Below, one piece after another: positions 566-19,785 of a DNA stretch of 64,000 nt. How positions within the stretch are numbered: position 1 is the stretch's first letter; the number at the start of each line of letters is the position of its first letter. Origin of the DNA: Candidatus Aquiluna sp. IMCC13023 (GTDB taxonomy: Bacteria > Actinomycetota > Actinomycetes > Actinomycetales > Microbacteriaceae); contig NZ_AJKR01000003.1 in NCBI RefSeq assembly GCF_000257665.1, forward strand, positions 1 through 64,000, read 5' to 3'. A program made the translations under genes and the position numbers. The notes under the pieces are model-generated. The model did not search any database. It had not been told where the DNA came from and was given only the letters and a program-made list of their open reading frames with translations.

Positions 566-1029
566 TTTGCTCAAGCAAAAGCTCAAGCAATTTGGCTGAC
601 ACAAGTGAAACACTTCATGGAATTTTTGAACACAGCATCGCCCACCAAGAAGGCCTGTGAAGGTAGGGGCCTTGTTCTATCGGAGGCCTTTTCGCCCCTA
701 ATTCATGGCCAATTACCCCAGTTTCACCCTAGTGACATAGGAATCGATTCCTCGGAGCTTGGGCGTCTTACTTGTTCTGTGATCTTGTGCGCAATGGGAG
801 TTCATGCTTGGCCGAAGTCTCTCCGGATCATGGCCTCGGCTCCCGGGCTCCGGTAGCTAATCATCTTCTTCGCCCCGCACATGTCAGGATTTCGATTCTG
901 CTTGGTGTTTTTAAGAAGTCCAAGTTAGAGCCTTAAAACGACCTATCAATGCGGTTCACCCCACTAAAACGCCGCCCCCAAAAACGGGTGAGCTATCTTC
1001 AGGAGATTAGTTATCTATTGGGAGATTTA
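566..1029. other. Intergenic stretch without a convincing gene
   Basis: About 460 bases between two adhesin genes. I see no ORF with a believable protein or ribosome site. A weak inverted pair (AAGGCC at 650-655, GGCCTT at 668-673) could be a poor terminator of the upstream gene. The region should also carry the promoter of the next gene, but I cannot place it. Confidence 0.4.
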
Positions 1030-2393
1030 ATGAGATTTTTGCCAGCTCGAGATGCACAAAACCATTCCAGCAAGTGGTCTTCCGCGTTTTCTGAAACAAA
1101 CTACTTGACGACTAAGTCCGTGCGCTCTCGTCTCATTCAAAATCCTCTCTTCAAGAAGAAGCCTCGACACGCGGCGGTCAGCACGAGGTTTCCCAGGAAG
1201 CTTAGCTTGGCCGTTTCGCTGTCAATGGTTGCAGCAGCCCTGGCCGTCCCTCCTGCTTGGGCGACAACAGAATCGATTTACTGCACCACAGGCTTGTTCA
1301 CTGTCACAACTACAACTGCTGACGGGATCACTACCGTTGAAGTTACCGGAAACACCTCCTGCGCCGGGGAGGCAGTAATCCCCAACACTGTCACTTCAAT
1401 TGGCTACCAAGCGTTCCAGGGAGCCACCTCACTAGCCTCAATAACCATCCCAGCCACGGTCACCTCAATCGGCGACTTTGCCTTCTACAACGCCACCGCT
1501 CTAACCTCGGTGACCTTTGAGGCCGGCAGCAACCTCGAAACAATCGGCAACCATGCGTTTCGCGCCACCACCTCACTAGCCTCAATAATCATCCCAGCCA
1601 GTGTCAATGACATCGGCGCAAATTCATTCAACGGCAGCTCAATATCGTCTTTTGACATTCCCAGCGGCGTCGTCAGGATACGGGCATATGCTTTCGCAAA
1701 TACCCCTAACCTGACCTCCGTCACCATTCCAAATACTGTCATCCATCTTGACCAGGCAGCATTCCAAAACTCTGGCCTGACCTCGGTAACCATCCCCAAG
1801 AGTGTCACTGTTATCGGCGTGGCTGCGTTTCAAGAAGCCAGTGATCTAGTGTCCGTATCCTTTGAAGAAGACAGCGAACTGACGCAATTTAACGACCAGG
1901 CTTTCTTCAAAGCCCATTCACTCGTCTCCATAGACATCCCAAACGGGGTAGCAAGGCTAGGTAACCATGTTTTCCACCAGGCATATGCACTTCAATCAGT
2001 AACTTTCCCCAGTAGCATCAGCTATATCGGTGCGGCTGTCTTCAGCGAAAACACCTCAATGACCTCATTTAGTTTCCCAGATGACAGTCCGATAACGGAT
2101 ATTAAGAATCATACTTTCATCGGGGCCACTGCACTGGAATCCATAGTCATTCACAGCGGTGTCACAAGCATTGGTAGCCACTTCGCCAGCGGAGCCACCT
2201 CGCTGGCCTCAGTAACCTTCAAGGGCAATGCGCCAAGTGTCGGTACTGATGCCTTTTCGAATGTTGCAACCGGTGCTTTGGCAAACGTTGGGTCTTCCGC
2301 CACTGGCTATGGCTCCGCGGGTGATACCTGGAACGGTCTGACTATCGCCCTAACACATAGCGTAACCTTCGATGCAAACGGCGGTGCGGAGCG

Positions 2394-2397
<4 letters not shown>
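1030..2397 (+). CDS. BspA-type leucine-rich-repeat surface protein, N-terminal part (frameshifted)
   Basis: I chose the ATG at 1030 because GGAG lies 5 bases upstream; an earlier in-frame ATG at 949 has no ribosome site. From 1030 the product starts with ~60 charged residues, then a hydrophobic export segment ending near PAWA. The rest is a ladder of BspA/LRR_5 repeats with recurring units such as VTSIG..AF...TSL..ITIP, about ten in number. The final residues VTFDANGGAER begin an InlB-type repeat, but the frame stops at TGA 2395-2397. The rest of that repeat continues in another frame in the next ORF, so this looks like one adhesin gene split by a single-base deletion. Such LRR proteins usually bind surfaces or host/particle ligands (family knowledge). 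Expression as a truncated protein is possible. Confidence 0.7.
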
Positions 2398-3320
<923 letters not shown>

Positions 3321-3747
3321 TCCAGCAGAAACCATATGGCGAACCGTGGGTGGGTCGGCCTGGGATTAGTCACCTGTGGCCTGATCACAAGAATCGAGAC
3401 TTTGCTCTGGCAAAATATCAAGCATCCGCGCCTAATTAGGTCGATAGCTTTGGGGCATGAGGATGCCGGCAGTCGCGGCTGCGCTCAGGAGTACACCATC
3501 TCTCAGAGGTCCAAATCTGACTCGTGACGAGAAGGTCAGGAGTCTGCTTCTCATGTATGGGGTCAAAAGGGGTTCCGGGCAGAGTCAGAAACGGGTTTTA
3601 AATGTGGTAAACCCCACTAATCTCTGCGCGCAAAATACATGTCTGTAAGCTAACTAATGATCAGCATTTCCGGAGCTCTTGATTTTCCATAGAAGACTCC
3701 AGGCCAACGGGGCCGGGGAAAAAGCTAGCCTTGAGAGGCCCAAACCC
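3321..3747. other. Intergenic stretch upstream of the response regulator
   Basis: About 430 bases. The ORFs here read as unlikely proteins and lack ribosome sites. The stretch probably holds the promoter of the two-component pair that follows. I cannot identify a clear -35/-10 pair or terminator. Confidence 0.35.
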
Positions 3748-4395
3748 ATGACAACCTTCAAGCGAAGAGTTCTCATTGTTGAAGATGATAATTTCATGGG
3801 TTCACTGATTGCCAGCGCTTTGGCAAATGCCGGGTTCGACACCATGATCGCAACCTCCGCAGTTCATGCGAAGCGCTCAATCCCGGCCTTTGACCCTGAT
3901 GTAGTCACAGTTGACATAGACCTTGGCGAAGGTCCAAACGGAATTGATTTTGTTCGCATGATGGCGCTGACTCATCCTGGAATAAAGCTTGTGATTCTAA
4001 GCACCCTGGCTGACGCTAAAAGTGCTGGACTCGGGGTCTTGGACGTCCCAGGAGGCGTGACTTACTTGAGAAAGTCACTTCTTCATGATGTATCGGAATT
4101 CACCTCAGCGATCGAGTCGGTTATTGGAGACAAGAACCCGGAGATTCGCCAAGACACCCAGGCAGCCGAATCCTTAGAGGCTCTTAGTAAGGTCCAGCGC
4201 GAAATACTTCACATGCTGTCCATGGGTCTATCAAATCGCGAAATTGCCAACCGTCGGGAGGTCAGCCTCTCAAACATCGAACAGCGTTTGACTGAGATCT
4301 ACAAGGCTTTGGGAATAACAAAACGCCAATCAGCTGTGCCAAGGGTGGAAGCCACTCTCAAGTATCTGTCCATTACTGGTTTGGCTAAGCGCTGA
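3748..4395 (+). CDS. NarL/LuxR-type response regulator (first copy)
   Basis: The chosen start is the ATG giving MTTFKRR, with GAGAGG about 10 bases upstream; a longer frame from 3679 adds 23 residues with no family likeness. The receiver domain covers residues ~6-125, with acidic pair E12/D13-D14, predicted phospho-acceptor D56 (in VDIDLG) and the conserved Lys in YLRKS. A LuxR-type helix-turn-helix occupies ~150-205 (LSMGLSNREIANRR…). It should be phosphorylated by the membrane kinase encoded 10 bases downstream and then control transcription; targets are unknown. The gene pair is a paralogue of 15734-18032 with the same order. The many exported proteins nearby are plausible targets by location only. 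Confidence 0.85.
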   Translation: MTTFKRRVLIVEDDNFMGSLIASALANAGFDTMIATSAVHAKRSIPAFDPDVVTVDIDLGEGPNGIDFVRMMALTHPGIKLVILSTLADAKSAGLGVLDVPGGVTYLRKSLLHDVSEFTSAIESVIGDKNPEIRQDTQAAESLEALSKVQREILHMLSMGLSNREIANRREVSLSNIEQRLTEIYKALGITKRQSAVPRVEATLKYLSITGLAKR

Positions 4396-4405
4396 TGGGC
4401 ACCGC

Positions 4406-6106
4406 GTGAACAACACCCTAAAGAGAATTGGCAGCGCGGATGCGATTAATTGGTTTTCCATTTTGTCTCTCTTTTTTGCGAGTTTGCCAGGAGTGCTAGT
4501 TGCAGCCAATAGTTCTAACTCGGATCGCCTAGCAGATGTATTTTTGGCAAGAAGCATTTCATTTATTCCCATAATCGCGCTGCTCGGGATGGTAAAAAAG
4601 CTTTTGGGATCACTTGGTGGCGGCAGGCCCAAGCCGACATTGGTGATACTGGCATTTGTTGTTAGCCCCCTTGTTGGCCATGGTGTGTTTGAGTCTCTCC
4701 TTTTGATTCAGAACCTATCCGAGCCATCATTTCCTTGGCTTCGACTATCGCTGCGCGTTGCGGTCTCCTTTGCAATCCTGTTTCTCGCTGGGCTGCTAGT
4801 CGCTACTGCCAGAGAGCTCAGCCGCCAAAACTATCAAATGAAAGAGGCCGCGGAAGGCTTGCTAGCAATTCGAACCCAGGCTGCCGAAAGAATTGCATTT
4901 CGCAAATCGCAATTACTCGAGGAGGTATTTGCTGAGGTTAAGCTTCGGCTGACATCGCAGAACTCTCCCCGGGCGACGACAGAATCACTTAAGCAACTGC
5001 TTAGCGAAGTTATCCGACCCTTGAGTTATCGACTCGCCCGGGAATCTCCTGGGAACAATGTCAGCACCAATTTGCTCGCAGGCCGCCGCGATCAATGGTC
5101 GGAGCTCTTTAGGGCGACCTTGGGTGGCAACCCTATCCACCCACTCAAGGTAGCCTTTCTCGCACTCGTTATCATGGGCTCGTATTCGCTAGTTTCTGGA
5201 GACTCTCGCGTGGCTTCGAATTTCTTCGCGGCATATGCAGGCTGGGTAATTGCCTCTTGTGTCTTTAGGCTGTTATGGGCAAAACTTCCGGCCCAAGTAG
5301 CGACGGGTGGAAGGGCAGTTTTATTTGTTTTGGGCATCGCTGCAGTCACATTAGTGTCGATAGCGCTCGTGCTCTATCCGAGTGGATCGGTGCCTGCACC
5401 TCTGTTCGCTGCATGGCTAATTCTGAATATTTTCATTTTTCTCGCTGTGGGCTTGGTTCATTGTGCCATTGTGACTCTCAGGGAAACATCGTCCTCTCTG
5501 GCTGAAACACTTGACGAACTTAGGCGTGAGGTGATCTCTCTAAACAATGGCTTGCGAGTAATGCAAAAATCGATGGCAAGGGTTCTTCACGGCACAGTGC
5601 AGCAGGAAATAACCTTGGCAATCAAACGGCTGCAAGAATCGAGTAATCTCGAAGAGGGGCGTCGGGTCGCGCGAGAGAGCCAAGGGCGAATCAGTAAGTC
5701 CCTCACGCAACTTACGCAGCCGGGTATCGACACCGTCAATCTCTCAAATTCACTCAGGGCTTTCGCGGAACTCTGGGAGGGGTCGGTCGCCATAGTGCTA
5801 AATCTAGGTAAGAGCGATTTAAAAATCATTGGAAATCGACCCAGTCTTTCGCTTGTTCTTGACGAGCTCGCTAAGGAGGGTTGTCGGAATGCAATCGTGC
5901 ATGGGTCGCCGGCGAAAATTGTCATAACTGTCTCGGTTGATTTAGACAATCGCCTAGTCGAAATAGTGATCGAGAATGACGGTAAAGCCCTTGAGCCTGG
6001 CGTTGAGAACGGCCTTGGATCTCAGATTTTCGATGATTTGACAATGCGCTGGTCGAGAACTCAAGTAGGTCCGCTCGTGCGACTAGAGGCTAAGGTCCCG
6101 CTCTAA
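4406..6106 (+). CDS. Membrane sensor histidine kinase of the HisKA_3/NarX-like type (first copy)
   Basis: Starts at GTG 4406, 10 bases after the response regulator. The 566-residue product has two groups of hydrophobic segments (about residues 15-135 and 245-360), separated by a charged, probably coiled-coil region that contains no recognised sensor domain. The dimerisation/phosphoacceptor region is near H395 (RVLHGTVQQ), where Gly replaces the Asp usual in the HisKA_3 'HD' motif. The ATP-binding domain has the N box around N495 (CRNAIVHG) and a G1 box with the Asp as IENDG (D525) rather than DNG, and ends with a short GLGSQ. It is expected to phosphorylate the regulator encoded upstream. Altered boxes may mean weak kinase activity or mainly phosphatase activity. 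The signal is unknown. Confidence 0.8.
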   Translation: MNNTLKRIGSADAINWFSILSLFFASLPGVLVAANSSNSDRLADVFLARSISFIPIIALLGMVKKLLGSLGGGRPKPTLVILAFVVSPLVGHGVFESLLLIQNLSEPSFPWLRLSLRVAVSFAILFLAGLLVATARELSRQNYQMKEAAEGLLAIRTQAAERIAFRKSQLLEEVFAEVKLRLTSQNSPRATTESLKQLLSEVIRPLSYRLARESPGNNVSTNLLAGRRDQWSELFRATLGGNPIHPLKVAFLALVIMGSYSLVSGDSRVASNFFAAYAGWVIASCVFRLLWAKLPAQVATGGRAVLFVLGIAAVTLVSIALVLYPSGSVPAPLFAAWLILNIFIFLAVGLVHCAIVTLRETSSSLAETLDELRREVISLNNGLRVMQKSMARVLHGTVQQEITLAIKRLQESSNLEEGRRVARESQGRISKSLTQLTQPGIDTVNLSNSLRAFAELWEGSVAIVLNLGKSDLKIIGNRPSLSLVLDELAKEGCRNAIVHGSPAKIVITVSVDLDNRLVEIVIENDGKALEPGVENGLGSQIFDDLTMRWSRTQVGPLVRLEAKVPL

Positions 6107-6255
6107 AGCATCTTCTGCTTAGAGCGCCTGTCACAAGCAGCCACAGTCCATTACAAGTTGCGCAGCTCACACCTAGAAACCCCAAGAAATGGGCTGACAA
6201 CGCATTGTTTTCAGGGGCCTGAATCTACCTCTTAGGCAGAAGGCCTACGAACTAC

Positions 6256-6427
6256 ATGTTCCCCCAGATGTTCCCCCACTAAAGCACTATCCGCTGATGT
6301 TCGCCTGTGTTCGCTGATGTTCGCATCCCTGAACTAGCTCTATTTCCGAACAGCCACGAACACTCACGAACAACCTGCACTTAACTGGGGGACAAGGGGT
6401 CGCGGGTTCAAATCCCGCCAGCCCGAC
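6256..6427 (+). repeat. Long direct repeat, copy 1, with phased TGTTC / GAACA boxes
   Basis: The segment is similar to 9233-9384. It contains direct TGTTC boxes at 6257, 6269, 6298, 6308 and 6318 (the last three exactly 10 bases apart). GAACA boxes, the same motif inverted, lie at 6348, 6358 and 6368, also 10 bases apart, just before the tRNA fragment. This layout resembles arm-type binding sites of a tyrosine-recombinase attachment site (inference). Confidence 0.65.
6383..6427 (+). repeat. tRNA-Pro(GGG) 3'-half fragment, copy 1 (att-like)
   Basis: The sequence from CTGGGGG (an anticodon loop reading GGG) through ACAAG, the T-arm GCGGGTTCAAATCCCGC and the acceptor strand CAGCCCGAC matches the 3' half of a tRNA-Pro. 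The 5' half is absent. The anticodon-to-3'-end block is the classic core of tRNA-borne attachment sites. Similar copies are at 9340, 11933 and 19485. Confidence 0.75.
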
Positions 6428-6443
6428 GGGGTCTGAGGCATAT

Positions 6444-6461
6444 TGGGGGCAATCACCCCCT
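6444..6461 (+). terminator. GGGGG/CCCCC hairpin after the tRNA fragment
   Basis: TGGGGG (6444-6449) pairs with CCCCCT (6456-6461) around the loop CAATCA. A similar GGGGG-CTT-CCCCC hairpin follows copy 3 of the tRNA fragment at 11993-12005, suggesting it is the original tRNA terminator carried with the fragment. There is no clear T-run. Confidence 0.45.
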
Positions 6462-6519
6462 AAATAACCCCCTGAGTTAATTGGGGTAGGGTTACCTTAA
6501 CTTAAATGATGGGAACCCC

Positions 6520-7614
6520 ATGAGAACTAGGTCCTTGAGACTGACTTACATCTCTGCACTAGCTGCTGGGCTTCTATTGCTTACCTCATGCGCGACTGTT
6601 AGCGATGAGCCCGCTGCAGACTTAGCTCTTCCTTCGCCAACTGCGGAGGAAATGGCTGCCATTGAGGAAGAAGTCTCTTCCAAGCCCGGGTTTGCAGAGG
6701 TGCTCGACTGTCCAAAATCTCCGATCCCAGAAAGCCAACTGAGCCTGGTTAACTTTTCGGATTATCCAGACGATGAAATCGTAAATTGCTTTAATTTTGC
6801 GGCGAATAAAATTGCCGAGATGCAAACTGACGTAATGATGATTATGTACCCAGTGGGGCCATTTCTTTCCGGTGAGGTGAAGAATAATGATACCGATTAC
6901 CGGGGTCCTGGTTTTGAGCCGGTACTGACAGCGGACCAAAGGGACTCGATGGCCAGCTCGCTGGAGAGCTATTTAGAACCTGCTTGCGGCGGGGAATTTG
7001 CGACATACCAGGCTCGCCAAGTATCACGCTTTGCCGAACTGGGCGGAGGGCAGCAGGTGGCTGGTGGTGGTGGTGGTTCGGATGAGTGTGCGAAGAAGCG
7101 ATGGATGATTTTGAGCATTGATCCCGACAGAGCAGGCCCTTCCAAAGAGCTAGTTACCACTTTTTTTCACGAGGTGTTCCACACAGTTCAAGCCAGTCCC
7201 GGACCCAGCTGTAATTATTCCGGCGCACCAGAAGATGATCAGTTTTGGATTCATGAGGCTGGTGCATCGTTCTTCGGACTGGAGATGGCGGCTGAACTTG
7301 CGGACTTGGATTCCGACGTGGTGTGGGATGACCACATGAGCTTTGTTTCCAATTTGCTGGGGAACCAAGAAATTAGCTCTAAGTTTGAGGACCCCGGCAT
7401 CGCCGAAAAGGGCTCTATAGCGTTGCGGTTGCTCGCTGAGCGAGGGCAGCTAGCAACCTCCGAGGTAATGGACGGGTCTTTGTATCAGAACTGCGGAGGA
7501 CAACCAGAGGCCTTTAGTCCGCAAAACATTCAGGTTGCGAAAGATTATTGGTTCGATTACTCAGAAGTCAGTGAGGGTGTTTTTAGGTTTTCCGAAACCG
7601 CACTTGCTCAGTAG
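6520..7614 (+). CDS. Lipoprotein with HExxH...E zincin-like motif (protein A)
   Basis: ATG 6520 gives an export signal with lipobox LTSC near residue 24, so the protein should be lipid-anchored on the outer face of the membrane. A zinc-peptidase-type motif HEVFH lies at residues 217-221 and a second conserved Glu in WIHEAGASF at 246, 24 residues later, as in gluzincins. A region around MMIMYPVG resembles MGMIWPIG in the proteins at 13039 and 14567. I infer a metallopeptidase or peptidase-like fold; substrate unknown. It lies directly after an att-like junction and is convergent with the next gene. A 12-base motif GGTTACCTTAAC at 6490-6501, just before the start, recurs with one change upstream of 13039. 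Confidence 0.75.
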   Translation: MRTRSLRLTYISALAAGLLLLTSCATVSDEPAADLALPSPTAEEMAAIEEEVSSKPGFAEVLDCPKSPIPESQLSLVNFSDYPDDEIVNCFNFAANKIAEMQTDVMMIMYPVGPFLSGEVKNNDTDYRGPGFEPVLTADQRDSMASSLESYLEPACGGEFATYQARQVSRFAELGGGQQVAGGGGGSDECAKKRWMILSIDPDRAGPSKELVTTFFHEVFHTVQASPGPSCNYSGAPEDDQFWIHEAGASFFGLEMAAELADLDSDVVWDDHMSFVSNLLGNQEISSKFEDPGIAEKGSIALRLLAERGQLATSEVMDGSLYQNCGGQPEAFSPQNIQVAKDYWFDYSEVSEGVFRFSETALAQ

Positions 7615-7648
7615 CATCCGCGGCCCTGACTGGTCGAGGCCCCTCAAG

Positions 7649-9067
7649 TTAGGTGAGTGCTTCTAGTTGCTTCTCCGGAGACAGCTTGAGGAAAACATCA
7701 AATTCCTCATAAAAGGCGTCTATGTCTCTTCCGAAGACATCCGCGAACGCTTTGTAGAAACCATCAGTTTTATTGGCCTCGTAGAAGTCAAAAAAGATCG
7801 CCTCATCCGAAGTTATATCGGCCAAGAACGCCATGGCCAGGTAACCCATTCCATACTGAAGAAACCCAATGCACAATTCGCTCTGACAGTAACTCTTAGT
7901 TCTGGCGGTGGCAGCTTCCGTCTCGATGTCCATCAGGCGCAAGCTCGGCCAAGTTTCCAAGCCACGTTGCACATCACCAATGAATTCACGTGTCATGTCC
8001 AGTCGAATGTTCGGATCCCACCCTTCCTGTTGAGTTAGAAAGACAGCAAAATACTCTGCCGCTCCCTCCTCAAACCATCGAGGCATTGGAAAGCCTCCCT
8101 CGTAATGCGGCCTGTAGATCTGCTGGGATCCTTGGTAAACATGAAAATATTCGTGAGCAGTCACCTTTTGCAGGCCGATTAGCTCCTCGGGATGCTTCAG
8201 GGAACAAAATTCGTTTTGCTCGTTGGCGCAAGGGTTGTTTACGAAATAGAAAACTGGATCGTCTAAGTACCAGGCGGCTCCGGCGAATGCGTTGCCACCG
8301 GGATAGATTGCTGACATTTCTCGCATTGATTCGCCTTGATCTTGCGCACACTGTTCGAAACTGATGTCGGGGTTGCCCCAAGAGCAGAAGTCTTTGATCA
8401 TCGGCTCAACCACTTCGGGGTCATTGCCGACTGTATAAAACTTGAGTGGACCGTAATTTCCTAAGTAATCTGTGGCAGCCTGCAAGGACTCCGAGGTCGC
8501 ATCAAGAATGTCCTGCGGAACATCGGGTGTGGCCAGCATCTGTATGGGACTGGTCTGGGTCCGGTCCCAACCGACGGATTGGAGCCTTTTCGCATTCTCC
8601 TTGGCTGTTTCAGACACCGGGCCCATGAACCTCTCAGGGGTTAGATGCTCTATCCCGAAAAAATCCAGTTCGTAGACGCATTCTTCAAATGGTAAGCGAG
8701 CCAATCGGTTTTCCTCGGTTAGGAGTAGCGGGTAATTGTCCATACATTCCTGGCTAGCTTCCATCGACCAAGAAAAACAAGTGTCCGCATCAGATGGGCA
8801 CATCTCGTATGGCAAACTCGCCGCACTCTCAGTAGAAAATTCAGCGTTTAGGTCCTCATTCGAACTTTCCTCGTTCACGTCCTCATTCGATCTACCCTGA
8901 CTCACGGTTGCGCAGGAAGTAAGAAACAGAGCCCCAGCAACCAGCAATGAGATTGCAGTAAATACTGGTCGTTTAGTCGGCAATGATGTCCATTCGTAGG
9001 AGATAAGGTAACCATACTCCTTTGGGAAGAACCGGCCTGTGTCTCTCCGCCTGCCAGGACTGCGCAA
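7649..9067 (-). CDS. Lipoprotein with HExxH...E zincin-like motif (protein B)
   Basis: On the minus strand. The longest frame starts at ATG 9067, but the lipoprotein signal (…LLVAGALFLTSC) lies ~45 residues in, so an internal TTG at 8983 may be the true start; neither has a good ribosome site. The motif HEYFH is at residues 305-309 (long numbering), with Glu 334 in WFEEGAAEYF, 24 residues after the second His. Several Cys residues before the motif could form disulfides. It is convergent with protein A and lies in the same 3-kb unit between two similar att-like repeats. A role as surface metallopeptidase is inferred from the motif only. Confidence 0.7.
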   Translation of the reverse strand: MRSPGRRRDTGRFFPKEYGYLISYEWTSLPTKRPVFTAISLLVAGALFLTSCATVSQGRSNEDVNEESSNEDLNAEFSTESAASLPYEMCPSDADTCFSWSMEASQECMDNYPLLLTEENRLARLPFEECVYELDFFGIEHLTPERFMGPVSETAKENAKRLQSVGWDRTQTSPIQMLATPDVPQDILDATSESLQAATDYLGNYGPLKFYTVGNDPEVVEPMIKDFCSWGNPDISFEQCAQDQGESMREMSAIYPGGNAFAGAAWYLDDPVFYFVNNPCANEQNEFCSLKHPEELIGLQKVTAHEYFHVYQGSQQIYRPHYEGGFPMPRWFEEGAAEYFAVFLTQQEGWDPNIRLDMTREFIGDVQRGLETWPSLRLMDIETEAATARTKSYCQSELCIGFLQYGMGYLAMAFLADITSDEAIFFDFYEANKTDGFYKAFADVFGRDIDAFYEEFDVFLKLSPEKQLEALT

Positions 9068-9209
9068 TTAATTGCCAACCTGAGCCAGTGGGCATCGCCA
9101 CGCCGTCGCATTCAGCGTTTACAACTCTGTCTCTGGAATTTTTGACATGGGCCGAGGTGATGCCCTCGAAATACGAGTCCTACTAGCGATGCATGCCAGT
9201 AACGGCAGT

Positions 9210-9237
9210 AACATCTTCACGCGGGCGTGAAGATGTT
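9210..9237. repeat. 13-bp perfect inverted repeat
   Basis: AACATCTTCACGC (9210-9222) and its exact reverse complement (9225-9237) are separated by GG. Its right arm runs directly into the first TGTTC box of the long repeat. It could be a recombinase core or operator, or a factor-independent hairpin without a T-run. Confidence 0.6.
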
Positions 9238-9384
9238 CCCCCAGATGTTCCCCCACTAGAGCACTATTCGCTGATGTTCGCAGTCCCGAATTGGCGCGAT
9301 TTCCTAATAGCCACGAACACTCACGAACAACCTGCACTTACCTGGGGGAGAGGGGGTCGCGGGTTCAAATCCCGCCAGCCCGAA
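9233..9384 (+). repeat. Long direct repeat, copy 2, with tRNA-Pro fragment
   Basis: Shares with 6256-6427 the ATGTTCCCCCAGATGTTCCC start, the CCACGAACACTCACGAACAA block and the tRNA piece. TGTTC boxes are at 9234, 9246 and 9275; GAACA boxes at 9315 and 9325. It has fewer boxes than copy 1. The tRNA-Pro(GGG) 3' fragment occupies 9340-9383 with a small change after the anticodon loop (GAGAGG for GACAAG). Copies 1 and 2 bracket a ~3-kb unit with proteins A and B. Confidence 0.65.
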
Positions 9385-9514
9385 GGTATTTTGAGCGGGT
9401 TGCTGTAAATGTCCCCACACTTCAGCACCAACGGCTGATCTGAGATGGCATGCGTGAATTGTGAGTTCTGGAAAAGCGGTACCCTAGAGAAATAATGGGG
9501 AAATTGGGTCGCAA

Positions 9515-10567
9515 ATGAGAACAGCCATCAGCTTGACTATTGCCGCAACGCTTATTTTTGTCGCTGGCTGCAGCGCCGCGGAGCCGATCACCGAGGATGG
9601 TGAAGTGCAGGCTTCCGTCGAGGGGGAAGAGGCGCAGTCCGATATTTCAGATGCTGAGGTAGCGGAAGTATGCGACCCTGCCGCCGCACACCCAAAGGGT
9701 GCTTTTGAATTTGCCACTCAATTAGATGACAGCCTGCCTGAGGCATGGCGGCTTGAGTTTGGAGTGATCATGGACAACCTTCAAGAGGTTGCCCCAATTT
9801 CTTCGTGCCTTCATGACTTCAAAGACGTAGAAACCAATGAGTACTCAGTGAAGTCGCCCATGAGCATCTATGCCTGGAGTAATGCTGTTGACAACCCTTG
9901 GCCCGAGGAGAGACCGGGTATGGAGGGAACCAGTATTTCCGGTGACGGAACGAATACCTGGATGATTTTGGAAATATATCAAGATGAGTTTGAATACGAC
10001 GACCTGCACAGGTTCTCCGTCATTGCTCATGAGTATTGGCATGTGTATCAAAGGGGCGCCTGGATGGCGGATTCTCCGCCTGTAGGCGACTCTTGGCCGG
10101 TTTGGATGTGGGAAGGCGGCGCGCAAGTCGTCGAGGAGCTCTATGTTTCGGAGCACTATGACAGGAGCAACTTCGACAGCAACTTGTTTCCCGTTATAGC
10201 CACCGGACTAAGTAACCCGTCAGATTTTGAGCTTTACGACCGTGATGGTGGTGCTGCTGGCGGAGAGCTTGATCTCAATACATCCGCATTCATGGTGCTG
10301 GCTTTCGCGAAGGAGCTACAAAAGACCCAGGGGATCTCTGAGGCTCAAGCCTTTAGGCTTATTTTGTCGGCTCCCGCCAAGCCCAATTCGGCAACACCAT
10401 TCTTAGACGTTTTTGGGATGACTTCTGAGGATTTTTACACCTCGCTGAATCAGTATCCAGCAGTCGAGAGTGGCGAGAACTGGTTTGAAGGTGACGTTGT
10501 TGATGCCTCGGATGTCATGCCGAGCAGGGGCTTGACTTTAGCTGAGATTCTCGAACCGCCCGAGTAA
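9515..10567 (+). CDS. Lipoprotein with HExxH...E zincin-like motif (protein C)
   Basis: Starts at ATG 9515. The N-terminus has a short hydrophobic segment and lipobox VAGC near residue 19, followed by an acidic low-complexity linker. The motif HEYWH is at residues 172-176, with Glu 200 in WMWEGGAQ, 23 residues on. It is closest in pattern to protein B (HEYxHVYQ). The C-terminus is a helical-looking region ending in Pro/Glu. Expected to be membrane-anchored outside the cell and possibly a zinc-dependent peptidase; substrate unknown. It follows copy 2 of the att-like repeat. Confidence 0.75.
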   Translation: MRTAISLTIAATLIFVAGCSAAEPITEDGEVQASVEGEEAQSDISDAEVAEVCDPAAAHPKGAFEFATQLDDSLPEAWRLEFGVIMDNLQEVAPISSCLHDFKDVETNEYSVKSPMSIYAWSNAVDNPWPEERPGMEGTSISGDGTNTWMILEIYQDEFEYDDLHRFSVIAHEYWHVYQRGAWMADSPPVGDSWPVWMWEGGAQVVEELYVSEHYDRSNFDSNLFPVIATGLSNPSDFELYDRDGGAAGGELDLNTSAFMVLAFAKELQKTQGISEAQAFRLILSAPAKPNSATPFLDVFGMTSEDFYTSLNQYPAVESGENWFEGDVVDASDVMPSRGLTLAEILEPPE

Positions 10568-10584
10568 AGGTTCGGCTAGGCCCT

Positions 10585-10968
10585 CTACTTGACTGGAGCC
10601 CCGTATTGGTTTTCCTCTGCGGTCGAGTCCAAGACGGAGAATACAAATAGGACCACTCCTCCAGCAAAGGGGATAAGTCCTATCAATGCCCACCATCCAC
10701 TCTTGCCAGTGTCGTGAAGTCGACGAACAAGTACCGCGAGGGCTGGGAGGATGGTGGCAAGAATCCAGACTAGGCCAACTATGCCGCCGCCGCCGTTTGC
10801 GATAAACCGATCAACGTCGCCATTCATAAGCGCCAGATCGATAGCTGCTGCGGCAAGATTAGTGATAATCAGAAATAGCTGAATGAACCAATACTCTGAG
10901 CGGCGTGAGCGGCCCTTGAACATGGCATATCGTGACCAAAAAGATCTAACTGCTTGACTAAAGACCAT
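10585..10968 (-). CDS. DUF805 family membrane protein
   Basis: The 127-residue product has the DUF805 pattern: an N-terminal F..RGRSRRSEYW box, three to four hydrophobic segments and the conserved VRRLHDTGKSGWW motif before the last pair of helices. These small inner-membrane proteins are widespread and of unknown function. The gene is convergent with protein C, 17 bases away. Start ATG 10968. Confidence 0.85.
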   Translation of the reverse strand: MVFSQAVRSFWSRYAMFKGRSRRSEYWFIQLFLIITNLAAAAIDLALMNGDVDRFIANGGGGIVGLVWILATILPALAVLVRRLHDTGKSGWWALIGLIPFAGGVVLFVFSVLDSTAEENQYGAPVK

Positions 10969-11054
10969 GGTGACCTCTTTCGTATTTCTGTAGTTTCAAC
11001 TTATCTCAATAACCGGAGAAGTGACGATCAGCTTCCCATGCCATGAAGCTCGTC

Positions 11055-11573
11055 CTAGTCCACTCGAGTTGTGCTGATGTGGGAACGCTGCTCGAGGGTT
11101 CGGTGCACGGGGCACTTATCGGCGATAGCCACGAGTGAGGCGATTTGCTCCTCGGTTAGATCACCACGCAATCGAATGTCACGCTGGAAGTGGTCGATTT
11201 TTGCCTCCGAGTTCTCACAGCTTTCACATCCGATGGCATGTCGTTTATCGTGGCGAACGCTGACTGAGACGTGATCGAGGGGTATCTTCTTGCGCCTGGC
11301 GTAGAGGCGAATCGTCATTGCGGTGCAAGCGCCAAGTCCAGCAGCCAGAAACTGGTAGGGAGTTGGCCCGCTATTAGTCCCACCAACATCTTCTGGCTCG
11401 TCGGCCTTCATTTGGTGCACACCTGCGACCAAGACATCCTGAGCAAAGCCATCCGGGGACACCTCTGAGACCAAGACGTCACCGTCAGGTGATGATTCAT
11501 CGCTGCCGGAGGGGGCACTAGGAAGGTAGCGACTAGCCCAGGCGGACGTCGGAATTGCTATCGGCGCAGGCAC
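11055..11573 (-). CDS. OsmC family peroxidase-like protein
   Basis: The core matches the OsmC/Ohr fold, with one reactive Cys in LGACTAMT and the second in DKCPVHRTL. It resembles the OsmC domain found at the C-terminus of bifunctional hydrolase-OsmC proteins (family knowledge). The likely role is thiol-dependent detoxification of organic hydroperoxides. The start is uncertain: GTG 11573 lies inside the antisense P-type ATPase relic and gives an N-terminus unlike the family. TTG 11474 would start close to the OsmC domain but has no clear ribosome site. The N-terminal region may be chimeric or not translated. Confidence 0.8.
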
Positions 11574-11862
11574 CGATGTTGCAATTGCTTCGGCAGGTGT
11601 AATCCTCGCAAGTTCTGATCCAAGATCAGTTTTGTCTGTAATAACTCTTTCTAAGAAGTCCTACCAAAAAATGAAACAGAATCTCTGGTGGGCAGCCGGC
11701 TACAACCTAATTTCAGTGCCACTAGCGGCCGGCGTTCTTGCACCGGTGGGTTTCATCCTGCCGATGTCAGTCGGTGCGATCTTGATGTCGCTTTCAACGC
11801 TTCTAGTTGCCCTAAACGCTCAATTGCTTAGAAGGCTCGACATATCCCCCAGCTCTACATAG
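11530..11862 (+). pseudogene. C-terminal relic of a copper/heavy-metal P-type ATPase
   Basis: In one frame from 11530 the translation reads [20 protein letters not shown], then a [11 protein letters not shown] segment, [10 protein letters not shown] and [18 protein letters not shown]. This is the classic last ~110 residues of CopA/ZntA-type ATPases, from the end of the P-domain hinge to the last two membrane helices. There is an in-frame TAG just before it and no start codon or upstream ATPase domains. It is a broken remnant whose first part lies antisense to the OsmC gene. TTG 11632 opens a 76-residue ORF, but a functional protein is unlikely. Confidence 0.85.
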
Positions 11863-11932
11863 ATGGTGAAAAACAGCTAACGAAGAAAATCACGACTAGA
11901 TAGCTAGCGAAAGCAAGCAAGTCGTCGATCAG

Positions 11933-11975
11933 TCTGGGGGACAAGGGGCCGCGGGTTCAAATCCCGCCAGCCCGA
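11933..11975 (+). repeat. tRNA-Pro(GGG) 3'-half fragment, copy 3 (att-like)
   Basis: TCTGGGGGACAAG, the T-arm GCGGGTTCAAATCCCGC and CAGCCCGA repeat the fragment at 6383 with one change (GGCC for GGTC). The long phased-box repeat is not found upstream of this copy. The downstream GTATTGGGGG hairpin is shared with copy 1. Confidence 0.7.
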
Positions 11976-12006
11976 GGGATGTGAAGCGTATTGGGGGCTT
12001 CCCCCT

Positions 12007-12070
12007 AAGTGAAGTGAAGTGAAGTGAAGTGAAGTGAAGTGAAGTGAAGTGAAGTGAAGTGAAGTGAAGT
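12007..12070 (+). repeat. Pentanucleotide microsatellite (GAAGT)x12
   Basis: Twelve perfect tandem copies of GAAGT at 12011-12070, preceded by AAGT at 12007-12010, with no interruption. A 5-bp unit in non-coding DNA is prone to slippage and changes helical phasing with each copy. Confidence 0.95.
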
Positions 12071-12222
12071 AGGGGGATGTTTCCTGGACTTTGTAGCGAT
12101 TGACTTTGAAACAGTCAATGAGGATCGTGGCCTAGCCTGCTTGGGTAGCTATTGCCAAGCTGGGAAGGTAGGAGTAGGTTCGAACTATTCGACATTTCGC
12201 ATCAAGGCCTTTTACGGAACCC

Positions 12223-12432
12223 ATGGATGACCGAAGACATGAAGAGTTAGCTAACGCTTACGCCCAGGCAGCGCTGGATTATTCAACGGCGTGCGAAGCT
12301 TTTGAAATCGCAACAAAATCCCACAGAGCATCCGTGCTGGCCTATTTTTCAGCCATGGGGCTCAGAAGCGATGTCCACTTCGACCTACCGCTGAGCGAGC
12401 CCGCCCAGGACTTGCCAAAGTTCGAAATCTAA
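12223..12432 (+). CDS. Small hypothetical protein (69 aa)
   Basis: ATG 12223 has a weak CGGAA ribosome site 5 bases upstream. The product is mostly helical in appearance (…EELANAYAQAALDYSTACEA…), acidic and lacks a signal peptide or known motif. Not recognised. It lies alone after the microsatellite. I think it is more likely real than not, since composition and helix periodicity look protein-like. Confidence 0.45.
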   Translation: MDDRRHEELANAYAQAALDYSTACEAFEIATKSHRASVLAYFSAMGLRSDVHFDLPLSEPAQDLPKFEI

Positions 12433-12458
12433 ACCCTTCAGGCAATAAGGGGTGATGA

Positions 12459-12671
12459 ATGGTCTCGTTGGTTCACGGCATGAGATCTGGGCCTGAGCTC
12501 AGAATGATGCGAACAATGACCCTGGTAGTGACAGATCGCCCTCTGACGATCGCAGAATGGGCCAAATACGACAGGCAGTCCAAGAATCTTGAGCAACTGT
12601 ATTCAACCGGCACAAAAGGCCTTGCCCAATCGACCACCGGGGGGCTCGAAAAGAGCCGCCTGGGTGGTTGA
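12459..12671 (+). CDS. Possible small hypothetical protein (70 aa)
   Basis: ATG 12459 is preceded by a good AAGGGG ribosome site. The product is basic with no recognisable domain; the segment LVVTDRPLTIAEWAKYDRQ could be a short helix region. It may be a gene fragment or a chance frame. Low confidence. Confidence 0.25.
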   Translation: MVSLVHGMRSGPELRMMRTMTLVVTDRPLTIAEWAKYDRQSKNLEQLYSTGTKGLAQSTTGGLEKSRLGG

Positions 12672-13038
12672 GAACTGATGGCAATTCTAAGTCCTTGGTT
12701 GCTACCGCAGGTGGCAACTTAATCTACAAATAGATCGATTGACTGCGGGCATTACCAATTGGCGTAAGGTTCAAAACGGGGGCACAATCAGCGGATGCTC
12801 GGCGAAGCAAAAATAGCGCTAATTCCAAACGCCGACGCCACTTCGCGTCCCCCTATGGGCAACCGGCCCATATTTCTCCGATGCCCTTGGGCTGAGCTTG
12901 ATTACCAATTGGAGCAGAGCTAGTTCAAAGAAGGCTAAAGGTAAAATCGTATGGTTTGCTTGACTACTATTTGTATGCCTGTTAGGTTCCCTTAACAAGT
13001 AGTGCCTTCATAGGGAGGGCCGTGGTGAAGGGTAAACG
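12672..13038. other. Intergenic leader of the protein D gene
   Basis: About 370 bases. The words ATTACCAATTGG occur twice (near 12749 and at 12901-12912) in different surroundings. A promoter-like pair sits at 12960-12988. No gene is seen. Confidence 0.4.
12960..12988 (+). promoter_or_regulatory. Promoter-like pair upstream of protein D
   Basis: TTGACT (12960-12965) and TAGGTT (12983-12988) are 17 bases apart and ~50 bases before the ATG at 13039. The -10 overlaps a GGTTCCCTTAAC motif that recurs with one change before protein A, so it may be a regulated promoter. Confidence 0.4.
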
Positions 13039-14331
13039 ATGACTAATTACAAGTTTGGAACCGGCCGCAAGATTGCTGCAATCGTTTCTGCAATGTTGCT
13101 GGCAACCGCCTTTGCGACTCCGGCACAATCCGCGGGTGTCAAGTATTCGGTCTATCAGAAGACCCTTGCGACCTTCAGTGAAACTGCTACTACATTAACC
13201 AGTCAGCAGCGGGCCCAAGTGAAGGCTGCAGTGGATGCGAATCCAACTGCGGAAAAATTCATCTGCACCGGCATCAGGTATTACTCGCAGCCGATGAGCA
13301 TAAACATCATGGTTCGCAAGCGCGCTAAAGCGGCCTGCGAATATGCAAAACAGCTAAATCCGGAGCTGTCAACTTGGTTCCAGAACAAGCCAACGCAGGC
13401 TAAAAGCTATGCAGGAAAGGTCCTGTTGACACTGAAGAAGCCTTTGGTCACTTCCTACACCGGTATTAGTTACGCCGATGGAATCACAAGTGCCGAGGTG
13501 GTTGGTTGGGTTGAAGCTGCGATCGCAGAAATGAAGAAACCACCGAGCACCTACATGGGCATGATTTGGCCGATTGGCACGGCGTTGGATGACGAACCAG
13601 ACCCTGGCGTATTCGGCGGAGACCCATTTTCCGAATACAGCGATGTTTTGAGTGCTTCGGAAATCACCGAAGCGTCCAACTACTTCAGGACCTGGCAGAC
13701 TTCGGCCGCCGCCAAGGGCTGCGATCAATCTGCTGCTGAGCTGAGCGAGGGCGCAGATCGAGTCGAACGATGGATCAGGGGAGCTGCCAACGTTGCAACT
13801 GCACCGGATTCTTGTTTCGATGCGAGGGCCTCGACGGTGGCTTGGACTGCCGAGCAGTCCAAGTACGATGCAAAGACCACCTTCTTCCACGAGTCCTATC
13901 ACGGAATGTCTAACTATCTCTTACGACAATGTTCGCCAATCCTCCGGATAGAAGAGGACCAGATGAACCACGTCCGCTGGTTCTCCGAGGGAACTGCCGA
14001 TTACTTCGGGCACTACATGGCCGCCAAGGATGAAGGCAGGACGGATCACAAGCAACGGCTCTTGGCTAGATTGGCCACCTCATTGGCTACCGAGCCAAAC
14101 ATGACACTTGACTCAAACACCTATCCTCAGGCTGCTGCAATGATTCTGATGATGGAGCGGGGTTTGATAACTGAAGAGAAGCTCGTCGATGGTTCTTACT
14201 TCAATGACTGCAACTGGATCAGCACCTTCGATCCTGCAAACGAGGACATGAAATACATCTTTGATAACTTCTCGAACATTGAATCTTCGGGTGGCGTTTA
14301 CTCCTACACAGAACAAGCAATTAATGGCTGA
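13039..14331 (+). CDS. Secreted protein with HExxH...E zincin-like motif (protein D)
   Basis: ATG 13039 has AAGGG about 7 bases upstream. A Sec signal peptide ends near TPAQSA (residue ~31) with no lipobox, so the protein should be released or wall-associated. Residues ~35-135 form a small separate domain with the pattern RAKAACEYAKQLNP, somewhat like OmpA-C-like repeats at the ends of actinobacterial surface proteins (tentative). The rest matches the lipoprotein at 14567 closely: MGMIWPIGTALDDEPDP, HESYH at 284-288 and Glu 317 in WFSEGTADYF. Conserved Cys pairs probably form disulfides. Likely a zinc peptidase or a derived binding protein. Together with 14567 it forms a tandem duplicate with a different export route. 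Confidence 0.8.
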   Translation: MTNYKFGTGRKIAAIVSAMLLATAFATPAQSAGVKYSVYQKTLATFSETATTLTSQQRAQVKAAVDANPTAEKFICTGIRYYSQPMSINIMVRKRAKAACEYAKQLNPELSTWFQNKPTQAKSYAGKVLLTLKKPLVTSYTGISYADGITSAEVVGWVEAAIAEMKKPPSTYMGMIWPIGTALDDEPDPGVFGGDPFSEYSDVLSASEITEASNYFRTWQTSAAAKGCDQSAAELSEGADRVERWIRGAANVATAPDSCFDARASTVAWTAEQSKYDAKTTFFHESYHGMSNYLLRQCSPILRIEEDQMNHVRWFSEGTADYFGHYMAAKDEGRTDHKQRLLARLATSLATEPNMTLDSNTYPQAAAMILMMERGLITEEKLVDGSYFNDCNWISTFDPANEDMKYIFDNFSNIESSGGVYSYTEQAING

Positions 14332-14333
14332 CC

Positions 14334-14367
14334 TGCGTGCGGAGGCATCGTCATGCCTCCGCACGCA
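14334..14367 (+). terminator. 14-bp stem hairpin after protein D
   Basis: TGCGTGCGGAGGCA (14334-14347) pairs perfectly with 14354-14367 around a 6-base loop, just after the stop codon. There is no T-run, so it is either a weak intrinsic terminator or an mRNA 3'-stabilising hairpin. Confidence 0.6.
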
Positions 14368-14566
14368 GCGCCTGCAACGTTCTGTTCGGAATCCTTGATG
14401 TTCGCCGACGTGCCGGCGACTTTGAGGCTGCCAAGCTTTATGCCATCGCACTCAAGGGCTTTAGGCGGTTCTGAGATTATAGTTCAGAACAAGAATTAAG
14501 TGATAACTTAGCTATACACATGTTGCTAGAAATGCATGCCGGCAACTGCAAGAAAGGCGCACTCGA

Positions 14567-15661
14567 ATGAGCACAGAAAACCTTCAGACTATGATCTCAA
14601 GACGAACCAGTAAGCGCCTCTTGGGCATCGGGTTCGCATTAGCTGTAACCCTAAGCGGCCTTACCGCCTGCTCATCGGCCTCGACCGAAATAGCCCCTTC
14701 ACCTGCCAGCACCCCCAGCCAGGTTGCGGAAGAGGCTGAGCAAGAGGTTACCGAGAGCGCTGAACCAATCATTGAACGTGAGCCAACGCGAGTGGCAATG
14801 AGCTTTGCTGACGGCATCACGTCTGAGGAAGTCCTCGAATGGATCGATGCCGCCACCGGTCAGATGCTAAATCCACCAACTGACTTCATGGGACTGGTCT
14901 GGCCGATAGGTATGGCTTTGGATGAAGAGCCAGACCCACAGGTATTTGATGGTGATCCATTCATGGAGCACAGTGACGTCCTCGGGGACGACGAGCTTGA
15001 CGAGGTTGCCGCGTACTTTAGAAATTGGCAGGCGGGACTTGAAGGCTGCGACCCAGAGGACGCCAGAGGTTTTGACGAAGGGGCAGCGCGAGTTGAGCGT
15101 TGGATCAAGGGTGGAGCGAACGTCGCAACAGCGCCGGACCCTTGTTTTGAATCCAGATCCGCAATCGTTGCGTGGTCGGCGGATCAAGACAAGCAGACCG
15201 CGAAACAGGTCTTTTTCCACGAGTCATATCACGGACTTTCTAACTACCTGCTCAGGCAATGCAGCCCAGTACTGGGCAGGCAAGAGGACAGCATGAACGA
15301 CCTACGTTGGTTTGCAGAGGGAACCGCTGATTACTTTGGTGTCTACATGGCAGCCAAGGACGATGGCCGAGACGACTATGTTCAGACGATGCTCCAGCGC
15401 GCATATCTGGACCTTCGTGGAGACCCAGGAATGCCGCTTGAGGCAAACACGTATGTTCAAGCTGCGGCCATGATTCTGATGATTGAGCGCGGGATGATCA
15501 CCGAGGAGCAGATTCTAAATGGGAGCTACTTCAACAGTTGTGATTGGATAAACACTTTTGACCCTGATGCCCCGGGCATGGATTACATTTTCGAGAACTT
15601 CAACAAGATCGAGGTTTCCGGCGGAAGCTATTCATATTCAGAAGCAACCATCGCGGGATAA
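14567..15661 (+). CDS. Lipoprotein with HExxH...E zincin-like motif (protein E)
   Basis: ATG 14567 is preceded by GAAAGG. The signal carries lipobox LTAC near residue 35, followed by a Ser/Pro/Glu-rich linker. From ADGITSEE onward it is a close paralogue of protein D: MGLVWPIGMALDEEPDP, HESYH at residues 218-222, Glu 251 in WFAEGTADYF, and the same Cys positions and C-terminus. It lacks the small N-terminal domain of D. Expected to be anchored to the membrane's outer face. The next operon (response regulator and kinase) starts 72 bases later on the same strand, which suggests but does not prove a regulatory link. Confidence 0.8.
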   Translation: MSTENLQTMISRRTSKRLLGIGFALAVTLSGLTACSSASTEIAPSPASTPSQVAEEAEQEVTESAEPIIEREPTRVAMSFADGITSEEVLEWIDAATGQMLNPPTDFMGLVWPIGMALDEEPDPQVFDGDPFMEHSDVLGDDELDEVAAYFRNWQAGLEGCDPEDARGFDEGAARVERWIKGGANVATAPDPCFESRSAIVAWSADQDKQTAKQVFFHESYHGLSNYLLRQCSPVLGRQEDSMNDLRWFAEGTADYFGVYMAAKDDGRDDYVQTMLQRAYLDLRGDPGMPLEANTYVQAAAMILMIERGMITEEQILNGSYFNSCDWINTFDPDAPGMDYIFENFNKIEVSGGSYSYSEATIAG

Positions 15662-15733
15662 ACGCCGCGGCTGGTTCCTCTAGTTCCCGGGCCAGTAAGA
15701 GTGAGATAATTTCTCTCAAAGAAAGAAGCAGCA

Positions 15734-16369: not shown

Positions 16370-16370
16370 G

Positions 16371-18032: not shown

Positions 18033-18149
18033 CCTGCACCAGGGCTCAACTTTTCCAAAGTCGACTTAGCACCAAATCACCTCTACCTGCGGCCGTCGTT
18101 GAGACCGATTTCTTCCGGGGGAGCGAGGGAGTGATCCAGTTTTGGCTGC

Positions 18150-18340: not shown

Positions 18341-18407
18341 CCGGCCACTAATCTACTCAAGCAAAAAATTTCGCAACAATTGACGCTTCCCTGACTCTTA
18401 TTTTGTC

Positions 18408-18449: not shown

Positions 18450-18506
18450 TCGCAATGTTCGTTCATTTATTGGTGCATTTGAGTCAATGAGTGCATACTC
18501 AAGAGC

Positions 18507-19265: not shown

Positions 19266-19785
19266 ATCAAGTAGAACAACATTCCCTAGAAATTCATAGA
19301 ATTTGAGCGAAAGCGCTATGTTTTCTGTTGAATTCGTCGCATTTGGTTCATAACCGCCTAAGCACCGACAAGTGAGTTCGTTCAGCGCAGTGCGCATGGC
19401 GGCGGCCCTTGCGGGCAAGTCAAGCATGTGGCGCATCTTCTTCTATGTCTTAGTTGTAGCGGACCTTGGCGAACACTGTTTTCTAGTCTGGGAGACAAGG
19501 GGTCGTGTGTTTAGATCTCGTCAACGGACTGATAGTCCTCGCCGCCGGGGATGACGACACCCAGAAAAGCAGAAGTTGTCTGTGATTTATCCTTTGACCG
19601 GCGGTTTCGTAACTGAATTCCGCTCGTTGACCAGGCGCACTTTAACAATGTCTGAACTTTACGGTCCTTCCTCTCACGCATCCCCCCTAAATGGAGGACA
19701 GTTCCCTAACCTTCTTTAGCGAGTACGTTTTGGGACCCATCGGGATCCGACTAATCACTTCTTGCGGTCGACGTAGAGGAACCTT
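19266..19785. other. Intergenic stretch with a decayed tRNA-Pro fragment
   Basis: This 520-base gap contains the weakest tRNA-Pro 3' fragment (19485-19526) and the leader of the large adhesin. ORFs within it look random. No clear promoter is seen apart from the good ribosome site AGAGGA before 19786. Confidence 0.45.
19485..19526 (+). repeat. Decayed tRNA-Pro 3'-half fragment, copy 4
   Basis: AGTCTGGGAGACAAGGGGTC matches AGTCTGGGGGACAAGGGGCC of copy 3 at all but two positions. The T-arm that follows (GTGTGTTTAGATCTCG) is mutated so that it no longer pairs well. Probably an old junction of the same kind. Confidence 0.5.

Follow-up and report, generated by a model that had tools for sequence, protein, structure and literature searches.

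The question raised by this locus is what purpose is served by two arrays of phased TGTTC and GAACA boxes that lie on either side of two lipoprotein-like genes, A and B, in Candidatus Aquiluna sp. IMCC13023 (genome G000). The window analysed, a stretch of 64,000 nucleotides, is the first 64 kb of contig C3 (NZ_AJKR01000003.1). A preliminary description of this DNA had read the boxes as arm-type sites and the two arrays as tyrosine recombinase attachment sites bracketing a mobile-type unit. The larger part of that reading stands, since in the genus a tRNA-Pro core terminates each of the nine clear arrays, and a related genome, G010, carries a linked integrase with the same right-arm repeats. 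The array together with its core very probably constitutes a tyrosine-integrase attachment site, namely the distal (attR-type) junction of a small element at tRNA-Pro; this confidence covers the attachment-site reading, and present mobilisation is its less certain part. The units bounded by such sites are best read as non-autonomous, integrase-dependent cassettes that would accumulate by accretion resembling that of cis-mobilizable elements (CIMEs).

Box arrays and the parts of the probable attachment site

Every box position given earlier was verified: in copy 1, TGTTC at 6257, 6269, 6298, 6308 and 6318 and GAACA at 6348, 6358 and 6368; in copy 2, TGTTC at 9234, 9246 and 9275 and GAACA at 9315 and 9325, in the numbers first claimed. 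The two arrays do enclose genes A and B. The exact triple TGTTC-N5-TGTTC-N5-TGTTC occurs once per strand in the window, both times within array 1, and with up to two mismatches it was matched four times (three in array 1, one in array 2); 100 dinucleotide-preserving shuffles gave 0.18 matches on average and never more than 2. A statistic scoring the array was reached by none of 200 shuffles for each of four Aquiluna arrays. The box arrays are real and do not arise by chance.

Not all of the boxes belong to one repeat. The TGTTC pentamers at 6257 and 6269 are part of a separate repeat, TGTTCCCCC, with a 12-bp step, and the register of array 1 is extended by a degenerate fourth forward box. The resulting layout is, in order, a TGTTCCCCC pair, three TGTTCG boxes facing three CGAACA boxes at 10-bp steps, and the tRNA core (Table 1). 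The arrays may break short-read assemblies, because metagenome contig L091 (3388-4001), the last 614 bases of which are identical to the window, stops inside array 1.

Table 1. Coordinates of the attachment-site parts, cores and cargo genes in the window.
Feature	Position	Strand	Remarks
att1 left arm pair	6257..6277	+	TGTTCCCCC at 6257-6265 and 6269-6277, 12-bp step
att1 forward boxes	6298..6323	+	TGTTCG at 6298, 6308, 6318 (degenerate fourth at 6288)
att1 inverted boxes	6347..6372	-	CGAACA at 6347, 6357, 6367
att1 core	6377..6427	+	Copy of tRNA-Pro(GGG) 3' part; tRNA-like part to 6426
Cargo gene A	6520..7614	+	Lipoprotein-like, HEVFH motif
Cargo gene B	7649..9067	-	Lipoprotein-like, HEYFH motif
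att2 left arm pair	9234..9254	+	TGTTCCCCC at 9234-9242 and 9246-9254
att2 reduced array	9275..9329		TGTTCG at 9275, CGAACA at 9314 and 9324; 20 bp (two box periods) fewer than att1
att2 core	9334..9383	+	
Decayed right-arm repeat	9410..9418	+	TGTCCCCAC (2 mismatches), 26 bp past core 2
Third core	11934..11978	+	Arrayless; end of next unit (9515 gene, DUF805-like and OsmC-like genes)
Fourth core	19488..19523	+	Degenerate, 81% over 36 bp

The tRNA-Pro core and the stacked island

The core is a copy of tRNA-Pro from the anticodon arm to the 3' end. An intact tRNA-Pro(GGG) gene was called by ARAGORN on contig C6 (14729-14803) and this was the only copy called as a tRNA; ARAGORN called none of the core copies in the window, and Rfam gave no match in window positions 1-20000. 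Searched across the whole genome with up to two mismatches, a 20-base core pattern was found in four places, three in the window and one on C6. Contig C6 stops 1.56 kb behind the tRNA gene and the window opens C3, and the island probably runs from C6 into C3 through an unassembled gap. Because the window holds four cores, at least five segments are stacked in the island, beyond which the chromosome resumes with ABC-F (24119-25756) and pgsA (25856), a flank common to genomes G012 and G015. The unit of A and B measures 2,957 bp between the ends of its two cores. It had been presented as a single bracketed unit; bracketed it is, as one of several nested units, without an integrase of its own and with a left-end core that has lost its right arm. 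Directly behind the third core (window 12009-12068) lies a tandem 5-bp repeat comprising 12 copies of TGAAG type.

The bases left of the presumed exchange point read TTAAC in seven of the nine array-bearing cores and in eight of the 14 element cores, whereas the same position reads TTGTC or TTGAC in nine in-place tRNAs.

Conservation of the site and the right arm

Alignment of eight copies of the site, with boxes defined on copy G000_1, gave mean pairwise identities of 95% for the forward boxes, 85% for the inverted boxes, 85% for the arm 9-mers and 93% for the core part, against 55% between the boxes. The contrast between box and spacer was reached in none of 10,000 column permutations. Copies G000_2 and G015_1 are shorter by exactly 20 bp, or two array periods, and the arm pair of G012_1 is worn.

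A right arm was sought past 22 of 24 tRNA and element cores, excluding the G012 tRNA, where the contig ends, and the truncated G015_0. The best TGTTCCCCC match fell at +25 to +27 past the core in 11 of the 22, a placement with p = 8e-11 if matches were uniformly and independently distributed; this value is optimistic, because two of the 11 matches tie with another place and the cores are related. Intact right-arm TGTTCCCCC pairs lie 26-27 bp past the core behind the tRNAs of G021 and G010, and a single intact copy is present at G021_1 and at the degenerate G010 core. Direct arm repeats thus bound unit 1 of G021 at both ends, and G010 shows them to the right; the window has intact left pairs, its right ones being lost or decayed. 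The arm role first given to the phased boxes more likely belongs to the TGTTCCCCC pair, which flanks the core on both sides in G021 and is probably the integrase arm site. The phased array is probably an excisionase site, an assignment made because of an analogy to filaments of the BldC/RdfS type, in which one DNA turn per molecule has been described for BldC and likened to RdfS (PMC11963761).

Distribution of arrays in the genus and family

A sequence-only model of the array and half the core (R1) recovered nine arrays in five of 22 genus genomes (G000, two; G021, three; G019, two; G012 and G015, one each), all nine beside tRNA-Pro cores. At an E value of 1, matches extended to seven of the 22, the remainder being bare tRNA cores, the opposite strand of the same arrays, weak matches and two further sites, on contigs G000:C2 and G010:C28. 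The first (G000:C2:101703-101781, L048; E 4e-4) comprises a decayed left arm pair and the first boxes, without a core, beside a gene with a metalloprotease-like motif, and is perhaps the relic of a unit elsewhere in the genome. At the second (G010:C28 near 26787, L052/L071; E 0.0065), three CGAACA boxes spaced at 10-bp steps adjoin a different tRNA-like 3' end, so that a further target of the array is possible.

In a family search of 398 genomes under stricter filters, five were matched by R1 at E 0.01: G000, G012, G188, G146 and G219. Inspection by eye showed in G188 an arm pair of its own (GTACCCC), a TTCG array of 10-bp step and a tRNA-Pro core, and in G146 one copy ending at a tRNA-Val-like core.

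Units and their cargo

In four further genomes the tRNA-Pro site is occupied by units of 0.7-3.4 kb, whose cargo is the same or different. Three consecutive units of 1.05, 1.38 and 1.68 kb stand behind tRNA-Pro in G021, carrying in that order ABM and GYD genes, a lipoprotein 40% related to window gene 9515, and a major facilitator superfamily (MFS) transporter; the 1.05-kb unit has an intact right-arm pair together with left-arm pair, array and core. The units of G019 measure 0.7 kb and 1.7 kb. Genes A and B recur in G012 (3.4 kb), where homology begins at the core at which the contig starts, and in G015, where it begins in mid-array and the DNA left of the array differs. G015 lacks the second site, and about 50 bp of shared sequence join B to a 14567-type gene. 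A DUF805-like gene lies on the tRNA side of A and B in G015 and beyond them in G000 and G012. The ABC-F contig of G010, inspected by eye, starts with what appears to be the start of B, followed by a cupin-like gene.

No recombinase was found in the sequenced array-bearing units. No PF00589 match was obtained near the arrays of G000, G012, G015, G021 or G019, and PF00239 (serine recombinases) was matched in none of six genomes. No transfer-type gene was present among the open reading frames listed for the A and B unit and for G021 units 1-3, as judged from translations and, for some, Pfam. These four units have related att sites at both bounds and lack recombination and transfer genes, as CIMEs do; a tandem arrangement with a recombinase-encoding element, a further CIME character, is seen in G010, where an integrase element precedes the ABM unit, and not in G000.

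The window encodes five lipoprotein-like proteins with an HExxH motif, namely A and B and those of 9515-10567 (HEYWH), 13039-14331 (HESYH) and 14567-15661 (HESYH). Four of the five were scanned by Pfam and gave sub-threshold matches at most, some to metallopeptidases. They represent a local family expansion within the island.

Integrases associated with the site

PF00589 was matched in all 22 genus genomes. Genomes G012 (98% complete) and G015 (90%) each have two such proteins, whose length and score class match those expected for XerC and XerD, which they are inferred to be; the XerC/XerD site dif is presumably unlike the tRNA-Pro core. Three matches were found in G000, all outside the window, the third in a stretch with tRNA-Thr and a partial tRNA-Thr copy. 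A cognate integrase is therefore lacking from the window, which contains no PF00589 match, and is present in the G010 element.

That element, of 13 kb and with type I restriction genes, lies directly behind tRNA-Pro and the intact right-arm pair. It encodes, 9 kb behind the tRNA, a 377-aa integrase (PF00589, PF14659), together with an 85-aa helix-turn-helix (HTH) protein (HTH_17, below the Pfam cut-off). As to arrays beside integrase genes in relatives, the G010 integrase accompanies the same right-arm pair, but no Aquiluna element was seen to have both an integrase and an array, because the distal core of G010 is truncated and arrayless.

Relatives of the G010 integrase were found at E 1e-30 in 12 of 199 family genomes. 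In G188, G219 and G145 the distance from the 3' end of tRNA-Pro(GGG) to the integrase behind it is 124-129 bp. Both G188 and G219 have their own repeat pair on both sides, and G219 provides a 3.3-kb example with a CCACTACCATT pair at both ends. Apart from the G136 integrase, considered below, the remaining relatives lie by other tRNAs or where no tRNA was found.

The TGTTCCCCC 9-mer pair itself was found in 66 genome stretches. In 25 of them a P4-type integrase, confirmed by Pfam in the one stretch checked, begins 59-117 bp past the first base of the pair, and in 19 a tRNA lies 114-135 bp from the pair; the 41 stretches outside the P4-integrase set include those of the Aquiluna genus itself. 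Loci L073, L083, L085, L107, L123 and others, mostly of Burkholderiales, have P4-type integrases behind tRNA-Pro, His, Thr, Arg and Met, with the TGTTCCCCC pair in common and a near-constant distance to the tRNA.

Evidence on movement

The ABM/GYD unit is present in two of the 22 genus genomes, G021 (among whose contigs is C69, JADHKY010000022.1) and G010 (among whose contigs is C17, JAQWUU010000017.1). Inward from the right-arm repeat, 114 of 114 bp are identical between the two, up to the point at which the G010 contig ends, while the chromosome past the island is 70% identical over 5,346 bp; both sequences are metagenome-assembled genomes and call for caution. The integrase element stands between tRNA and unit in G010 and nothing does in G021, an order that is the picture accretion would be expected to leave. 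One unit seems to have passed recently between species. A second transfer signal is thin: across 249 family genomes gene 9515 has a single other relative, found in G146, a member of another genus (79% over 56 aa, against 71% for ABC-F). In the genome of the window the units are largely decayed, and because right arms are gone or worn there, A and B are probably immobile now.

Proposed mechanism

In the favoured reading, a small element would enter tRNA-Pro(GGG) by means of a tyrosine integrase of the type found in mycobacteriophage Giles, leaving array and core as its distal junction. An integrase supplied by another element would bridge the arm repeats and the core, and an exchange of strands within the anticodon-loop portion of the core would restore the tRNA and leave a core copy at the far end. 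Each fresh entry would shift older units away from the tRNA. The phased boxes probably seat a head-to-tail excisionase filament. Each unit has just one or two genes as cargo and encodes no recombinase, so that movement would be possible only in trans or, alongside a neighbour, in cis.

More speculatively, and less probably than not, any 1-3 kb stretch with a complete phage-type attP (arm pair, excisionase array, tRNA core, arm pair) might behave as a helper-dependent mobile unit, so that for streamlined actinobacteria of the genus tRNA-Pro would form an integron-like platform for collecting and swapping surface, transport and detoxification genes, with integrase coming only from passing elements. 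Streamlined planktonic bacteria need changes of surface and transport genes at almost no mobile-element load, and units with an attachment site only would provide such change at about 250 bp each. Helper-dependent cassettes could then be found by attachment site alone, and the box array would become a testable excisionase site.

Points against the attachment-site reading and alternative explanations

Several observations weigh against this reading. At the tRNA of G000, as at each of the four window cores, the right arm has either gone or decayed; of the 11 right-arm matches two are tied, and the cores from which they were counted are related. Six of 14 element cores do not read TTAAC; in the window, cores 3 and 4 have GTC, as in the tRNA, and no array, and array 2 is short of boxes. 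The sequenced part of the window island contains no recombinase, although the assembly gap remains, and the one distal core of an integrase element, that of G010, is truncated and without an array. The G136 integrase lies 240 bp off on the 5' side of tRNA-Pro. Outside Aquiluna the array statistic is weaker, being reached by 41 of 200 shuffles for G188, five for Giles and three for G219, and R1 scores the Giles attP at 14.2 bits where a bare tRNA core reaches up to 12.2. No stretch of the viral contigs carried a TTAAC-type core. Finally, A and B give no sign of recent movement, with identities among G000, G012 and G015 of 78-91% for A and 85-87% for B, against 99% for ABC-F.

One alternative is that the island is purely fossil, made of remnants of complete elements whose integrases were deleted and of which nothing is mobilised today. 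This alternative shares the attachment-site reading and differs on present mobility, so that the two are not exclusive, and it has appreciable weight while falling short of probable. The decayed right arms, the two arrayless cores, the lack of PF00589 near the arrays of five genomes and the divergence of A and B beyond that of ABC-F all favour it. It is opposed by the 1.05-kb unit of G021, with its intact right-arm pair, left-arm pair, array and core, by the identity of 114 of 114 bp of that unit in G010 against a chromosome 70% identical past the island, and by conservation of the boxes far above that of the spacers. If the site is accepted, the phased array could still bind the integrase, as additional arm-type sites, instead of the excisionase, which is possible but rather unlikely. 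TGTTC is common to both repeats, and the position of the array, with the arm pair on one side and the core on the other, is one at which some integrases have further arm sites. The step, however, is 10 bp and not 12, the sequence is TGTTCG and not TGTTCCCCC, and in G188 a TTCG-type array is seen by eye beside a different arm pair, if with the weak statistic given above; the filaments described for BldC, with one turn per molecule, also argue for an excisionase.

Two further explanations were weighed. Phased boxes are common for transcription regulators, and the array might be a regulator binding site beside cargo promoters. The coreless left part on G000:C2 and 76 viral stretches with bare CGAACA triplets and no att context would suit such a role, which is nevertheless highly unlikely. 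The preliminary description had held that an array found upstream of many unrelated genes would speak for a transcription factor; instead, the nine clear arrays all adjoin the tRNA-Pro core, and the cargo genes, for metallopeptidase-like lipoproteins, ABM and GYD proteins and an MFS transporter, are unrelated and are found in either orientation. The regulator was rejected because these arrays follow the core and not any gene type, the sites on G000:C2 and G010:C28 fitting less cleanly. Also highly improbable is a reading in which the recombination site, as in integrons, would be the inverted array itself, folded as single-stranded DNA. Three arrays (four folds, array 1 on both strands) did fold better than all 200 shuffles each, with z of -3.3 to -4.5. 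Box positions were paired in 116 of 128 cells but spacers in 12 of 56, or 21% against 26% in shuffles, and the duplicated sequence is the tRNA core and not the hairpin. With good folding but non-complementary spacers, the hairpin was rejected.

Relationship to known systems

The attachment-site reading finds its closest counterpart in Giles. The core part of array 1 matched 35 phage records, 28 of them Mycobacterium phages, and the Giles core is 91% identical over 45 bp at record 25136-25180; the attP of phage LilHazelnut, said to be identical to that of Giles, is placed at 25134-25179 (PMC6509537). The order in Giles is left pair, about 100 bp, core, right pair, integrase, excise. As in Aquiluna, repeat pairs with a 12-bp step stand on both sides, the left pair about 100 bp from the core, with weakly supported phased boxes in between, and the integrase is 35% identical to that of G010 (E 1e-69). 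Giles differs in that integrase (gp29) and excise (gp30) adjoin attP, while the window units have no integrase, in its repeat, TTGACCCC, and in a right pair about 49 bp past the core, compared with 26 here. The Giles attP and integrase are in use in integration vectors (PMC13104609).

Tandem islands at RNA genes, some without a recombinase, are known (PMC3146451, PMC10872708); what is unusual here is the very small size of packages without an enzyme of their own. No description of such islands in this genus was found in a literature search of limited coverage. In Dehalococcoides, 31 ssrA islands are reported, 15 of which lack an integration module and were proposed as possible cis-mobilizable elements (PMC3146451). 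They resemble the Aquiluna units in being tandem, bounded by copies of an RNA-gene 3' end and often without integration genes. They differ in using a serine recombinase and a tmRNA gene in place of a tyrosine integrase and tRNA-Pro, and in Aquiluna both arm pairs and the array are retained in units as small as 1.05 kb. Relatives of ICESt1 in Streptococcus reportedly include cis-mobilizable elements with tandem accretion. Tycheposons are described as tRNA-linked cargo carriers with a tyrosine recombinase.

Island fGI-2 of Methylopumilus, at tRNA-Lys, has recurring copies of the last 20 bp of the tRNA and ranges from 330 bp to 42 kb (PMC10872708). It too is an island of additive tRNA-end copies in a streamlined freshwater bacterium, but of another phylum and at another tRNA, and it is not known to have arm repeats or phased arrays. 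Clusters of attC sites lacking integron integrases (CALIN) consist of small arrayed cassettes, the recombinase for which has to come from elsewhere (PMC11389934), a dependence likewise proposed for the window units. They have attC sites and an integron integrase where Aquiluna has a phage-type site with a tRNA core. Complementary folded arms, which characterise CALIN cassettes, were not found in the count of paired positions; attC boxes themselves were not searched for.

A phage source of the units was unsupported by searches of viral contigs for the arm pair, the TTAAC core, the integrase and phased triplets. The exact arm pair occurred in no stretch and a looser version in four; one stretch matched a pattern for relatives of the G010 integrase and none was confirmed. 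With the array and core as query, the core part alone was matched in phages (among the best 20 of 35 matches) and in plasmids (among the 18 matches listed). None of the 76 viral stretches of CGAACA at 10-bp steps had two or more inverted boxes or a tRNA T-loop in a motif test. Loci L183, L192, L213 and L219 have five or six CGAACA at 10-bp steps, with no inverted half or tRNA by the same test, and the viral runs are perhaps iterons or operator arrays.

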